A stretch of DNA of 64,000 nt from Hyphomonas atlantica corrig. (GTDB lineage Bacteria > Pseudomonadota > Alphaproteobacteria > Caulobacterales > Hyphomonadaceae), in NCBI RefSeq assembly GCF_000682715.1, contig NZ_AWFH01000056.1:62001-126000 (forward strand), given 5' to 3'. The notes below the pieces were generated by a model. That model searched no databases and was not told the origin of the DNA. It worked only from the letters and a program-made list of their open reading frames with translations. Of the stretch, positions 27,508-62,538 are shown piece by piece; the first letter of the stretch is position 1, and the number at the start of each line of letters is the position of its first letter. Both the position numbers and the translations under genes were made by a program.

Positions 27508-27717
27508 ATGCGTAAGGGGACGCTACTGACAAACAACTGGCTGCTTGGAGGCATTTCTGTCCTCATCCTGATGATGACACTGTTTGTTTCCAGCCTGCAT
27601 GGTGACACGGCTCTGGAGTTCGGCGGGCTTCAGATGACCTTTGCGCCGCACGAGGAGGGGGGCGTTCGCCTGAGCATCGCCCGCTCTTTCGGCCAGTCAG
27701 ATTTCACCGCGCTTTAA
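27508..27717 (+). CDS. 69-residue membrane protein ending the psp operon
   Basis: One transmembrane helix ([19 protein letters not shown]) followed by a short soluble tail ([19 protein letters not shown]). AAGGACC ribosome site as for pspC, 45 bases downstream of pspC. No family recognised; possibly a PspD/PspG-like accessory by position. Its last 21 bases overlap the 3' end of the convergent mnmC. Confidence 0.65.
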
Positions 27718-29547
27718 GGCGCGCAGGATAAGGCGCGAGGGGCTGATTGCTTCCAGCGCCGAAACCTCGGCGGCAACTGGTCCGCCCAGACACATGGCTG
27801 CGAGAATTCGTCCCGCCCAGGGACCCCAGGTAAACCCTCGCGCGCCAAAGCCATTCACCAAGAATATTCCCGGCAAAAGAGGTGCATCTGTTTCGGCGGC
27901 GCGCCCTGTTCTCAGTCCGGAAAAGGCTTCAAGCATCGCTTCAAGGTTTGGTACGGCACCGATCAGGGGCAGACGGTCGGCGGTAGTGGCGCGAATTGCT
28001 GCACGTGATGTGACCTGATGGTCTTTCGCGTCGCGTCGCCACCACGGGGAGAGCTTTTTTAGGGCTTCAGCATTATCTTCTCGCGCTGTGTCGCTTGTTG
28101 TCGCGTCGGCATCCTGCGGAATTTTTTCGAACGTCGCGCCCCATAAGCGCTCATCGTTCAGGGCAAGGGCGTAGTGTCCGCTGGCCAGAGCATCTGCCTC
28201 AACGCGTGTTGCGCCGGTTACAAACTCTACCTGGCCAAGCCTGCCTTCCAGTTTCAGCCAGTCGAACTGCTGAATGGCGGACATGGCATTGGCCATGATG
28301 ATTGCATCAAAGGTCTCGCCATTTACGGTCCGGTTGCGGAGGTCGATGTTCACGGTCCCGATCTGTACCCGGACACCTTCGAGAAGGCTCGCGACAATTT
28401 TCTGCGGCTCAAGAATCATTGCGCGTTTGTGCAGAAGACCGCCGCCTGAAATGGCCTCGAGGTCTTCCAGCGGCAGAGGTGGGTCAGCGAGCAGTTTGGC
28501 AAAGCGGCTCAATTCTGCCGTGTCTTTCGGCATCTGACGAACACTGGTTTCATGCGCGCCATCCATACTTGAATAGGTTTGCCGAGCGGCAAGATAGGCG
28601 TCGATCAAAAGGCGCGCCTGAACCGTGTCGCCGGCATCAAGGCGCGGCATCAGCAAGGCGAGAGGGTTGCCACTTGCGCCGCTGGCGATGCCTGCTGGAT
28701 CAAAGACGGTGACATTCGCTCCACGCACGGACAGCGCATGCGCCGCGCTGGCGCCAGCAATTCCCGCGCCGAGGATGGCGATTCTTTTCGCGGTCGAAGC
28801 GCTTCCACGAAGTCCGTATACATCTTGAGCGGAGGTGGAGGGCTTGAGTAGCGTGGCTTCCAGTCGTTCTCTCTTTCGCCCATGCCCTTGTGCCTTGGCG
28901 ACATTGAAGCCCTCATCCGCCAGTCCGCGGCGAACAGCGCCTGCGACGGTGAATGTGCCGATGACTGCGCCCGGTTTCGATCGCGCCGCGATCCGGCCGT
29001 AGAGTTCGGCGGCCCACATATCTTCATTTTTTGCGGGGCTGAAGCCGTCAAGGAACCAGGCATCGGCTTGAAACTCGCTTTGTGGCAGCGTGTCGTGAAT
29101 ATCGCCCAGATGCAGCGTGAGCGTTATGCCCAGATCTTGCCAGACTTCATGATGCACACGGCGGATGGGCCCGGGCCACGCCGCAAGCAGGCGATCTGCA
29201 TAAGGCTTCAGTTCCGGCCATGTTTTCAACGCTCTGGCAGCGTCGTCGCGGGTGAGTGGGAACCCCTCAAAGCTGACAAAATGAAGCCAGGCATCCGGAT
29301 GTGGGCGGTTTGCCTGCCACAATTCGCACAGGGCCAGGAAGTTCAGTCCGGTCCCAAAGCCTGTTTCGGCTATTGTGAACTCGTCCCGGCCGGTCCAGGC
29401 CTCTGGCAGGCCGCATCCCTTCAGGAACACGGCCCGCGTTTCTGCCAGACCGTCGCCAGCCGTGAAGTAAACGTCACCTGCCTCCCGCGCGACGGGTGTG
29501 CCATCGTCTTTCCAGTCGATAGTGGGGTGGGTCAGCAGGCGTGTCAT
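27697..29547 (-). CDS. mnmC: bifunctional tRNA mnm5s2U34 biosynthesis protein
   Basis: 616 residues combining two enzymes: an N-terminal methyltransferase domain (Mnm[12 protein letters not shown], and [17 protein letters not shown]) and a C-terminal FAD-dependent oxidoreductase ([17 protein letters not shown] and the [14 protein letters not shown] end). It turns cmnm5s2U34 into mnm5s2U34 in tRNA wobble positions. The ATG at 29547 gives [12 protein letters not shown]; an in-frame start at 29604 is less likely. A short 10-bp-phased GCGACA array falls in the linker encoding ATTSDTARE. Confidence 0.93.
28079..28104 (+). repeat. three-copy 10-bp-phased TGTCGC array inside mnmC
   Basis: TCTCGC at 28079, TGTCGC at 28089 and TGTCGC at 28099, spaced exactly 10 bases. 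The same hexamer and pitch occur at 54471-54527 and 60254-60329. Short enough that chance is possible on its own. Confidence 0.45.
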
Positions 29548-53136: not shown

Positions 53137-54957
<1,821 letters not shown>

Positions 54958-59588: not shown

Positions 59589-60203
59589 ATGGGTAATGGA
59601 AAAATCCTCGCAGGGGCCGCCTTGTCGGCCATGATGCTGGCAGGTTGCCAGATGATACCGGCGGAGCAGACCGTCGCGCAGTATTGCGCGGATCCTGACA
59701 AGGCCACTGAGGCCGTCTGCAAGCTGAAGCTGGAAATCGACGGAAACACGACCGCGCTTGCCGATACGGACATGCGCCTCTCACAGGCCCGTTCAATGGC
59801 CGATAATGCGACCGAGGCCGCTGCGCGTGCGCAGGCCAGCGCTGATGCCGCACAGGCGCAGGCTGATGCAGCACTCGCAATGGCAGAGGAAGCCAACAGC
59901 AAGGAAGTGCAGTGCGAGACGCGCACCATCCAGAATTCTGACACGGGTTCATGCCGGCCGGGCTATGCGCTGACCAGCTGTACGCAGACGCGCTACACCT
60001 ACCGGGCAGGGGGCATGTCCATCCTGCGTGAGATCAATGACGAGCAGTGCCGGTTCAATAGCCGTGTGCTCGAGATGCAGGTGCGTTGCTGTGCTGTGTC
60101 CGGCTCAGCCCCTGAGCCGGAAGATACGCTGGTCGAGAACGAAATTCCGCCGCAGCCACCTCAGCCAGAAGCGCCAAAAGAGCCTGTGCCGGTTAGCCCA
60201 TAG
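59589..60203 (+). CDS. lipoprotein with coiled coil and cysteine-rich domain
   Basis: 204 residues. Lipobox LAGC near residue 20, an Ala-rich coiled coil (about 60-105, Lpp-like heptads), a cysteine-rich segment of about 70 residues (VQCETRT, SCRPGYALTSC, QCRF, RCC) and a Pro/Glu tail. No family known. Faces the caspase lipoprotein gene tail to tail. Confidence 0.7.
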   Translation: MGNGKILAGAALSAMMLAGCQMIPAEQTVAQYCADPDKATEAVCKLKLEIDGNTTALADTDMRLSQARSMADNATEAAARAQASADAAQAQADAALAMAEEANSKEVQCETRTIQNSDTGSCRPGYALTSCTQTRYTYRAGGMSILREINDEQCRFNSRVLEMQVRCCAVSGSAPEPEDTLVENEIPPQPPQPEAPKEPVPVSP

Positions 60204-60227: not shown

Positions 60228-60257
60228 GACGCCGCCAAGACCTGTCTCGGCGGCGTC
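60228..60257. other. hairpin between convergent lipoprotein genes
   Basis: Perfect 9-bp arms GACGCCGCC and GGCGGCGTC around a 12-base loop. No T run. It overlaps the first unit of the phased TGTCGC array. Confidence 0.5.
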
Positions 60258-60329
60258 GCTGTTTGGCGCGCTATGTCGCGTATTGTCACTGATCGTCACA
60301 TAGTGTCGCCGGATGTCGCTATTCGTCGT
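60254..60329 (+). repeat. eight-copy 10-bp-phased YGTCRC array
   Basis: Hexamers at exactly 10-base steps: CGTCGC 60254, TGGCGC 60264, TGTCGC 60274, TGTCAC 60284, CGTCAC 60294, TGTCGC 60304, TGTCGC 60314, CGTCGT 60324. Six match YGTCRC and two differ by one base; the four spacer bases are unrelated. It fills the gap between two convergent genes and runs into the end of the caspase gene. Confidence 0.78.
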
Positions 60330-62433
60330 CCTGCAGGAAGTAGAAGTCGCCACCCGTGGTGCCATCGGTATAGACCGGTCGCTGTTTCTGACCTGTGCGG
60401 GCAGCCACCGCATCCTGGACCCGTTTGAAGACGACGTTTGCCGGGTCATCGAGCGTGCTGATCAAATTGGCGAGTTCTTCGGAATAGATGCCGTCATCGG
60501 CCGCCGTCTTGCCGGGTTCCGTGGCGAACGCCTGGAAGACGCCGGATGCCCAGCCGACCGGACTGTAGGCGCGCATCAGGCCGCGGCTCTGATCATCCAT
60601 GACTGTCCGGCAGGCATCAAAGACGATGAAGGAAGTCGGCGCAACAGTTGTCGATACGCGGTTGAAGATCTGTTCGAAGCTGACGCCGAAGTCACGAATA
60701 TCCTCCGGCGAGGCGCCCGGAATGTCGGTGGGCAAGATGAAGTTCGTGCCCTCAACATTCACGCCATGGCCGGAATAGTAGAAGAAGGTGACCGGGTAGG
60801 CACCGGCATCCTTGCGGGCTTTCGCCATGCGCCCGAGAAGGCTGAGCGCGCGCACCGTTTGTCGCTGGCCAAGGTCTTCGCATTGCAGGACCGAGAAGCC
60901 GACATCCGTCAGCGCGGCGGTGATGCGGTCGCCATCCTGATGCGTCACGCTGAGGCGACTGACGGGAGGCGAATAGGCCAGATTGCTGAGCACCATGGCC
61001 TGCCGGTCGGGGTTCGGCCCGTTGATCCATGTGCAGCCAGCGATTTCCGTATCCGGCAGCAAGCCGCTCGCAGCGTTTGCGATTTCTGCCGCGCTCATCG
61101 CGGACGCATCGCTTACCCCCGTCGGCGGGGCAGACAATGTGCTGGTCAGGGGCGCAACCGGATCGCTGTCGCTTTCAACGGATCTGTGCGCGCTGATGCT
61201 CGTATCCGGATCAGGGCCGGGATCGGCAAGAAGCGTATCCAGCGAGACGACCTTGATTGACAGCGGAATGGTCTTCACGGCCTTGGCCATCTTCTGGCCA
61301 TTCACCTCAACCTGCTGGGACACTGTGAAAGTGAGGTCTGGCGAGCCTTCCTGAGTGGGAACGACTTTCCATTGCCAGAGTGTTGGCTCGCCCGGAATGA
61401 GCGGCTGTTCCTCCGGCGTTGTCGCTGTCAGGTCATATCCGTCGCCGACGATGGATGCCATCATCACGCCACTGGCGCGCACCGTATCGAATTCCAGCGA
61501 CAGTGCGTCCTGTGTGCTGTCAGGCGCGAGACCTGTGCCCATGATGGAGCGCAGAGATTCATCAATCTCTGCCTCGCTCGTGTCGCGCTGGATCGGTTGA
61601 ATGGCCACTTCAAGGAAATAGGGCTGGCCCAGCACCATCTGCTCTGGTGCGTGATGGGCGATCCGGCCACTGTCAAACGCATTCGCGGACTCGGCTGCCA
61701 GTTCCGAATAGCGATAGTCCCATTCCGGGCAATTCATGACGAATGCAGAATCGTCGATTTGGATGGTCTCGCTCCAGAAACAGAGCTGCTTGTCCATCAG
61801 TCCGGCTTCGAAGCCTTCGCCGGCAAGGTCCTTGGCCAATGCGTCCAGCGTCTCCGTCAAATTGCCCTGGATGCGATGGGTTGCCTGTTCGAACTCGCCA
61901 GAGCCGCCCTTGTCACATGTGATCAACAGGGTGCGCGGCGCAGAGATTTCCGCCTGGCATATTTCGACATTCTCAGCGCCGGCGGCCGTCTCGAGGTCGC
62001 TCAGATCGCCGCCTTCGGCCAGTGCGTCGAGCCATTCCAGCATGTCCGGGTCGTCGGCATGCAGCTCGCGCAGTTCGTCGAGATCTGTCTCGCTGCCAAA
62101 CTCCAGCGCGAGACCTGGCTCTTCTTCGGCATAGTCGTCGCCTCGAACCGGATCAGGTTGATCCCGGCCGGGTCGGACAGGGCGGCCGGGATTTGGGCTG
62201 GAGCCGGGGGCGGCCGCTCTGGGCGGTTCGGGCTGGACCTGAACGGGTGCAGGTGCGGGCGGAGGCGGGGGGGCAGGCTCCTGGTCGATCGGGGCGGGCT
62301 CAGGCGCTTCCACCGCTGGTTCGGGTGGCGCGCCGGCGGGCTCATCCATCGCATCATATTGGGCGCTGCAGGCGGCGAGGAGCGCGGCCAGCACAATTGC
62401 GCCGAGGCCTGTCATGAATGAGTTGATCCGCAT
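60319..62433 (-). CDS. lipoprotein with C-terminal caspase (metacaspase-like) domain
   Basis: 704 residues. Lipobox LAAC near residue 22, Pro-rich linker (EPAPPPPPAPAPVQVQPEPP), a mid region with several Cys of no known family, then a caspase-type peptidase fold at about 490-700: catalytic His in YYSGHGV and Cys in VFDACR. Extracytoplasmic caspase-like lipoproteins are rare. Start at the ATG 6 bases inside ATGGTGATG. Function unknown, perhaps processing of envelope proteins. Confidence 0.8.
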   Translation of the reverse strand: MRINSFMTGLGAIVLAALLAACSAQYDAMDEPAGAPPEPAVEAPEPAPIDQEPAPPPPPAPAPVQVQPEPPRAAAPGSSPNPGRPVRPGRDQPDPVRGDDYAEEEPGLALEFGSETDLDELRELHADDPDMLEWLDALAEGGDLSDLETAAGAENVEICQAEISAPRTLLITCDKGGSGEFEQATHRIQGNLTETLDALAKDLAGEGFEAGLMDKQLCFWSETIQIDDSAFVMNCPEWDYRYSELAAESANAFDSGRIAHHAPEQMVLGQPYFLEVAIQPIQRDTSEAEIDESLRSIMGTGLAPDSTQDALSLEFDTVRASGVMMASIVGDGYDLTATTPEEQPLIPGEPTLWQWKVVPTQEGSPDLTFTVSQQVEVNGQKMAKAVKTIPLSIKVVSLDTLLADPGPDPDTSISAHRSVESDSDPVAPLTSTLSAPPTGVSDASAMSAAEIANAASGLLPDTEIAGCTWINGPNPDRQAMVLSNLAYSPPVSRLSVTHQDGDRITAALTDVGFSVLQCEDLGQRQTVRALSLLGRMAKARKDAGAYPVTFFYYSGHGVNVEGTNFILPTDIPGASPEDIRDFGVSFEQIFNRVSTTVAPTSFIVFDACRTVMDDQSRGLMRAYSPVGWASGVFQAFATEPGKTAADDGIYSEELANLISTLDDPANVVFKRVQDAVAARTGQKQRPVYTDGTTGGDFYFLQDDE

Positions 62434-62538
62434 CACCATCCCCTTGGTTCCTGTGGTTAACAGGAAGTTACACGGGATTGGATGGCCTGCCAATTGAATG
62501 CGGGTTCAACCGGGTGGCGCAGGGCGCAGGCGGGGCGA

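Follow-up and report, generated by a model that had tools for sequence, protein, structure and literature searches.

In phage lambda, the origin iterons lie inside the initiator gene. Phased direct repeats also form the operators of OmpR/SARP-type and MraZ regulators, the words of mycobacteriophage stoperators are group-specific, and the regulator BldC is related to HTH_17 proteins. According to the parts of the cited papers available to us, phage-encoded resistance (PER) supplies extra phage origins in trans, to which phage proteins have been proposed to bind (PMC6356513), BldC occupies direct repeats of 9 bp in a head-to-tail manner (PMC5859096), and the filaments made by RdfS are also head to tail (PMC11963761). 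In equally partial sources, TAACTGA of Beggiatoaceae is a dispersed short direct repeat, patchy among relatives, whose binder is not named in the portion consulted (PMC4679880); the DUS of Neisseriaceae is a genome-wide word that differs by species together with its specific binder (PMC3630211); and the stoperators of Cluster A mycobacteriophages are numerous, dispersed, asymmetric sites for a repressor, at which transcription is stopped (PMC9283540, PMC6550527).

Here we compare with these systems a helix-phased array found in a 64,000-nucleotide stretch of DNA, which is the whole stretch analyzed and is called the window below. Table 1 lists its features, with genes called by a simple codon-based caller. 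The eight hexamers of the original prediction start at 60254, 60264, 60274, 60284, 60294, 60304, 60314, and 60324, as read in the sequence, and six of them match YGTCRC; those at 60264 (TGGCGC) and 60324 (CGTCGT) carry a one-base change. When scanned with a position matrix for this word, trained on the arrays of the same genome (the own genome hereafter), the array proceeds in steps of 10 bp apart from one 11-bp step.

Table 1. Coordinates of the arrays in the window and of the features adjoining the array under study
Feature	Position	Strand	Basis and remarks
Phased array, 9 units, word YGTCRC	60241..60331	+	Position-matrix scan; holds the eight reported hexamers, 60254-60329
Hairpin GACGCCGCC...GGCGGCGTC, putative terminator stem of the lipoprotein gene	60228..60257	.	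Sequence and alignment of six relatives
Lipoprotein gene, lipobox-like LAGC	59589..60203	+	Gene prediction; stop 37 bp ahead of the array
Caspase-domain (Peptidase_C14) gene	60319..62439	-	Pfam PF00656, E 3.4e-18; gene prediction
Second array, 11 units	54428..54539	-	Matrix scan; antisense within gene 53137-54957
Weak third array, 3 units	28077..28106	+	Inside gene 27697-29547 (-)

The array overlaps the final codons of the caspase-domain gene, and its start shares bases with the hairpin, which lies directly 3' of the lipoprotein gene; a Pfam scan of that lipoprotein gave no match. The original prediction placed the array between two lipoprotein genes and over the end of a caspase gene. The location was correct. 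However, the caspase-domain protein, whose N-terminal part is lipoprotein-like and proline-rich, appears by our reading of its signal sequence to be itself a lipoprotein, so that the flanking genes number two in all. Convergent placement likewise holds for the window array but is not typical, being found for 3 of 84 arrays in four genomes, and a link to the caspase gene found no support. What stood of the earlier interpretation was the phased array with its kept word. Conservation at the same locus, the lack of which had been named as a refutation, was not seen: none of the six aligned relatives has an array here. Their matched segments, which begin at the upstream gene, are 76-78% identical, and in the alignment their spacer at the array position is shorter than the own one. 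In these relatives an equivalent stem is followed by a T-rich tail, whereas in the own genome the stem is followed by the array. The word of the third window array is not kept in the orthologue of genome G213. The gene that bears the second array, of word TGTCGC, is TonB-like by our reading and has no Pfam match; it also contains a perfect GCCAGA repeat of 59.5 copies (53313-53669) that codes for a Glu-Pro run.

We then compared the arrays with chance. In the window, triples of the word with up to two mismatches numbered 10, against a mean of 0.29 and a largest value of 3 in 100 shuffles. The genome-wide search suggested with the prediction, allowing no more than one mismatch per triple, gave 45 matches in the 3.6 Mb of own sequence (overlapping ones counted) and 0 for the reversed pattern. 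The codon-preserving control agreed: the window's 232-kb contig held 13 triples, whereas 100 randomisations in which proteins and codon counts were preserved gave a mean of 0.28 and a maximum of 2. Among 86 TGTCGC-TGTCGC pairs with starts no more than 18 bp apart, 52 were at exactly 10 bp, with 8 at 9 bp, 8 at 11 bp, and 18 spread over seven other spacings. De novo repeat scans of the own contig ranked the 10-bp TGTCGC repeat first after masking of a simple repeat. Single TGTCGC words were not enriched in the 232 kb (280 on both strands versus 277 expected).

In the stretches read, 31 own arrays were scored at 24 bits or more and 11 at 40 bits or more. These counts cover arrays of at least three units in fetched stretches; since the stretches were drawn by pattern and profile hits, they are not a full census, and the position matrices were fitted on the same arrays that they detect. 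The longest own arrays have 15, 12, 12, 12, 11, and 11 units. Inside own arrays of at least 28 bits, 105 steps were of 10 bp, 26 of 11 bp, and 5 of 9 bp. The word fitted on 360 units is T (71%), G (94%), T (92%), C (89%), G (92%), C (82%), and, as predicted, the spacer is unconserved: in the same units its columns are near uniform except for a preference for C right after the word. Chance, tandem duplication, or a by-product of coding is therefore hardly credible as an explanation of the arrays, as the triple counts and the 10-bp peak argue against chance, 10 bp is not a codon multiple, and the unconserved spacers rule out tandem duplication as the origin of the arrays. Short repeats are nonetheless common in GC-rich genomes, and at the loose 24-bit cut we found 5 arrays in the real 232 kb against 5 in total in 12 codon-preserving randomisations, which leaves room for a few chance hits among the 31 own arrays; by scaling, about six own arrays genome-wide could be chance hits at this cut. 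Chance is thus refuted for the set as a whole, while weak three-unit cases may still be due to it. The array was thereby borne out as non-random and helix-phased, with word and phase kept, as expected for a cooperatively binding protein.

The window array is one of many in its genome, and the word differs between sister species. A strict triple of the own word had 16 matches in the own genome and none in 17 congeners, a further point against chance, nor in 23 other family members sampled; in the order sample, 5 of 159 other genomes had one match each, and the reversed control had one match each in seven genomes. With a profile built on both words, which would miss genomes with an unrelated word, many arrays were found in 5 of 105 family genomes, all of one genus, which we infer to be Hyphomonas (G206, 23; G213, 14; the own genome G000, 12; G220, 11; G207, 8), and one or two weak matches in 20 others. 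At an E value of 0.001 in 398 order genomes, the profile recovered the same five and two genomes with one match each. In three of the other array-bearing genomes the word, from a matrix fitted on G213 and G220, is CGTTTCAG at the same phase; in G206 it is CGTTTCAWW, also at the same phase. We read G207 as near G220 in word and sites. GTTYCAG triples with up to three mismatches numbered 21 in G213, 13 in G220, 3 in G031, 2 in G105, 1 in G001, and 0 in the own genome, and the reversed control gave 0 in all ten genomes.

At thresholds of 22, 28, and 35 bits, the own 232 kb yielded 8, 5, and 4 arrays with the own matrix and nothing with the sister matrix; on 240 kb of G213, the sister matrix, which was fitted partly on this same DNA, found 4, 2, and 1 arrays over these thresholds, and the own matrix none. 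De novo repeat scans of the 240 kb of G213 did not reveal its array word, which was found only via sites orthologous to own arrays.

At two loci orthologous to own arrays, G213 carries 10-bp phased repeats of the other word, and by our reading a few arrays stand at orthologous places in register, with the word exchanged. At the 5' end of a GH25 lipoprotein gene, in-register arrays are present in the own genome, G213, G220, and G207. The intergenic region that we read as bfr/bfd has in-register arrays in the own genome and G213 and a weaker one in G220; by eye, no other species had an array among 29 congener segments read around it, and in these array-free congeners the spacer is shorter in many and similar in length in some. 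In ligA, the own array is strong and those of the relatives are weak, and in a gene that we read as proB, the codons that read GTTTCA in G220 read GTCGCC in the own genome. The likeness among relatives in ligA and proB appears to reflect partly conserved coding, which is a point for a coding by-product at these places. Upstream of a bacterioferritin-like gene, a block (for example CAATTGCATATGAAAGTGCGACACAGTTGCA) is kept in L068 (2407-2466) and in 29 of 30 genus loci (L227-L256), and is likely, by our reading, a promoter or operator.

Of the 84 arrays with at least three units and 24 bits in the fetched stretches of four genomes, 50 are in genes, 22 are tandem intergenic, 7 are divergent, 3 are convergent, and 2 are at stretch ends. 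Among strong arrays (at least 40 bits), 26 of 42 are intergenic, versus about 10% of the DNA. Positions relative to gene ends, which the prediction had proposed to check, showed a stop codon no more than 30 bp away in 17 of the 32 intergenic arrays with both flanking genes called; it is the convergent arrangement that did not generalize. Divergent places hold 7 of these 32 arrays, although on the window's contig they account for about 36% of the intergenic sequence, and some divergent-placed arrays overlap gene starts. No common function was evident by eye among the neighbors of a set of 32 arrays chosen for inspection, nor by Pfam on ten proteins, and neither approach revealed an initiator-like array-bearing Hyphomonas gene.

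These positions bear on the main rival explanation, in which the arrays are read by a host regulator or filament-forming nucleoid protein whose recognition surface changed between species, and which acts locally (roadblock, insulator, or repression) or on chromosome shape. We consider this quite possible, though we do not favor it. Phased direct repeats are the operators of BldC, as described in the part of the paper available (PMC5859096), the intergenic share of strong arrays and the nearness of stop codons fit such a protein, and the 7 divergent arrays could be regulator sites. However, most arrays are intragenic, that of ligA being mid-gene, divergent places hold fewer intergenic arrays than their share of bases, the neighbors lack an evident common function, and arrays are numerous in only 5 of 105 family genomes. 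The BldC repeats, in the same excerpt, are likewise direct repeats on one strand that vary in number and recur roughly every helical turn, but they are of 9 bp, of AATT type, and located in promoters (PMC5859096), whereas 7 of 84 arrays are divergent intergenic and 50 of 84 are in genes. No BldC-like protein could be linked to the arrays. TAACTGA is likewise dispersed and patchy, but its heptamers are mostly right upstream of start codons, and the portion consulted describes one word and no switch between sister species (PMC4679880).

The orientation of the arrays suggested another role. In genes, 40 arrays are antisense and 10 sense (binomial P about 1e-5), whereas single in-gene TGTCGC words are balanced (123 antisense, 128 sense). 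An element linked to transcription and polar in its action, with sense arrays stopping or cutting transcripts, arrays surviving in genes only in antisense, and arrays serving as terminators after stops, would give this bias, and it would suit the window array, which follows a terminator-like stem where relatives have a T-rich tail. We nevertheless find it improbable, since the antisense words encode tolerated hydrophilic linkers (A-T-x-D-x-R-Q), tandem intergenic arrays are without a sense bias (8 sense, 14 antisense), and 19 of 22 phage initiator arrays are, by our reading, also antisense to their gene; the same bias in phage initiator linkers weakens the antisense bias as proof of a role in transcription. 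Stoperators differ in being single sites in phage genomes with a known cognate repressor, whereas Hyphomonas has chromosomal arrays.

We also considered that the arrays are tags by which own DNA is taken up or loaded into capsids, in dialects that differ by species as in the Neisseriaceae DUS. The species-specific words, their enrichment in permissive and intergenic DNA, and the likeness to DUS dialects, as far as the source seen in part describes them (PMC3630211), speak for such a signal. It is very improbable, as single words are unenriched and there are tens of arrays rather than thousands of sites; the DUS themselves are thousands of sites, single or in inverted pairs, as opposed to phased arrays. 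A DUS-like uptake word, which would be over-represented as a single word, was thus rejected.

Phages carry the same architecture in replication-initiator genes. In IMG/VR, exact TGTCGC N4 triples occurred in 97 stretches, against 26 for the reversed control. Exact triples of TGTCGC N5 occurred in at least 120, of GTTTCA N4 in 56, and of CGTTTCA N3 in 4 stretches; the reversed control applies to the TGTCGC N4 count, and all these counts may include redundant contigs. The 11-bp TGTCGC triples (at least 120) are thus at least as frequent in viral contigs (L495-L574) as the 10-bp ones (97), and many of them lie inside DnaD-like initiator genes. Many viral TGTCGC loci have long arrays, and at some N5 loci the array is an ordinary tandem repeat, its spacers conserved as well. 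Of 30 loci from the GTTTCA set, only the pair L455/L457 is in an initiator-like ORF by our reading, the others having been judged by eye.

Among 27 array-bearing phage ORFs, 22 matched PHROGs of replication initiation, DnaD-like helicase loader, or primase (6/7, 7/10, and 9/10 by batch); of the other five, four had no match and one was a virion structural protein. As these ORFs were picked from 44 loci after viewing, long, initiator-looking ORFs were favored. The 17 loci left out of the scan (L365, L375, L376, L383, L391, L395, L406, L424, L429, L431, L505, L506, L509, L524, L545, L557, and L569) mostly contain no long ORF resembling an initiator on visual inspection; L424 and L505 do resemble initiators. 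Two first-batch proteins that are not array-bearing (L401:6935-7666 and L376:11513-11809) were excluded, and the array-bearing L401 ORF was scanned later. By our reading, the phage array comes after a winged-helix-like N-terminal part. In 12 aligned phage initiators, HTH_36 was matched weakly in 3 and Phage_rep_org_N in 2, the initiator match of the one member shown in full being weak and below the curated cutoff. Relatives of one initiator are found in named phages of Arthrobacter, Gordonia, Pseudomonas, Xanthomonas, and Mycobacterium; in three of the seven named-phage records read, other words recur within the gene every 8, 10, or 11 bp, and the remaining four showed no clear in-gene repeats. 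A phage contig of alphaproteobacterial appearance, L393, has a long 10-bp TGTCGC array adjoining a GcrA-like ORF, both judged by eye, and its array-bearing ORF had no PHROG match. Three contigs (L383, L429, and L391) have two TGTCGC blocks about 30 bp apart or opposite in direction, possibly two-part origins to judge from this layout.

By analogy with lambda, the phage in-gene arrays would be origin iterons. In lambda-O-like, DnaD-like, and replisome organiser genes, the iterons share with the Hyphomonas arrays the word TGTCGC (GTTTCA in one phage pair) and the 10-bp or 11-bp phase, and are mostly antisense inside the coding gene. Tandem same-strand words at about one turn, one mark of a phage-origin iteron array, are thus present in Hyphomonas, but the second mark, location in or beside the own initiator gene, is not: a phage has one array inside its initiator gene, whereas Hyphomonas has many, scattered in unrelated genes and intergenic DNA. 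PER resembles the arrays as extra origin-like copies outside the infecting phage but, in the part of the paper available, is a noncoding phage origin region (PMC6356513), as opposed to dispersed chromosomal arrays; no dispersed chromosomal form of PER turned up in the open-licence literature. A name for the element, for which the prediction knew none, was not found in that literature either.

As sister-species words occur in the same layout, which phages also have in initiator genes, a DNA-binding protein probably reads the arrays, and it is very likely that they are protein-binding arrays. Same-strand recognition words in tandem, one per helical turn, are the predicted binding site. A winged-helix protein would sit on consecutive turns head to tail, one subunit per turn, like BldC-type regulators, a moderately likely arrangement. 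The phage data make a winged helix of phage-initiator type the nearest known reader of these words; that the binder is of this type, whose in-gene iterons the arrays resemble, is a tentative assignment with belief and doubt close to balance. The dispersed copies may further titrate the initiator jointly, as extra phage origins do in PER. Since the sites are scattered at places of low constraint (after stops and in tolerant coding DNA) without a common neighbor function, titration is likelier than local control, yet titration or decoy action as the joint effect is in itself rather doubtful. Iteron-like sites for a winged-helix protein of phage-initiator type, with joint titration, are our best explanation overall, which we hold tentatively. 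Points against it are the missing initiator-like gene among the array-bearing Hyphomonas genes examined, the unmatched array-bearing ORF of L393, the single initiator-like pair among the GTTTCA loci, the ordinary tandem repeats of some phage arrays, the divergent arrays, and the absence of the window array from its locus in the aligned relatives, besides the binder searches described below. In a more specific and unlikely version, the arrays would be natural origin decoys, tens of chromosomal copies of phage iterons that soak up or handcuff the initiator; they would have evolved in some Hyphomonas species, through point changes where they lie in genes and through additional DNA where they lie between them, and the word would differ between species because phages change theirs.

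Several candidate binders were weighed. Of 12 genomes tested, some with and some without arrays, 11 have HTH_17 proteins, whose presence hence does not discriminate between the two kinds. A ParB half-site was considered as CGTTTCAG resembles half of parS; among the genomes listed, parS TGTTTCACGTGAAACA occurs twice, 525 bp apart, in G000, G031, and G213, so that it is unchanged while the word changes, and a ParB-type reading was rejected. A specificity switch in the OmpR family was also rejected. The own genome, G213, and G220 have nine PF00486 matches each; six orthologous triplets were aligned and have near-identical DNA-binding domains despite the differing words, which also argues against a host regulator of this family, and two more were compared by eye in mixed alignments. 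The ninth protein differs by genome (for example L226), which does not fit two genomes sharing one word. L226 (G000, C17) is an OmpR-type DNA-binding protein without a counterpart, by our reading, among the G213 and G220 matches. No match was returned when solved structures were searched with the phage initiator alignment, and no paper on MraZ turned up in the open-licence literature.

A word kept in tens of arrays and exchanged, across the genome and in part at matching sites, between species of one genus points to a protein specificity that co-evolves rapidly with its sites, and the natural sister pairs make the evolution of a recognition code directly testable, in a group that we take to be related to Caulobacter. 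If the decoy reading is true, the arrays would be a protein-free, sequence-only antiphage defense aimed at replication initiation; if it is false, they would still reveal a new chromosome-wide binder. Short phased arrays in initiator genes would also let candidate phage origins and their words be read from sequence.

We also rejected replication polarity, as the array strands in the one-contig genome G213 follow no replichore rule by our reading. Next to the array at L066 (2543-2645) is a REP-like palindromic sequence, of which each of six congeners searched has several copies. In G220, an ORF (L191, 400-885) located about 1 kb away from a 14-unit array resembles, as we read it, a REP-associated tyrosine transposase.
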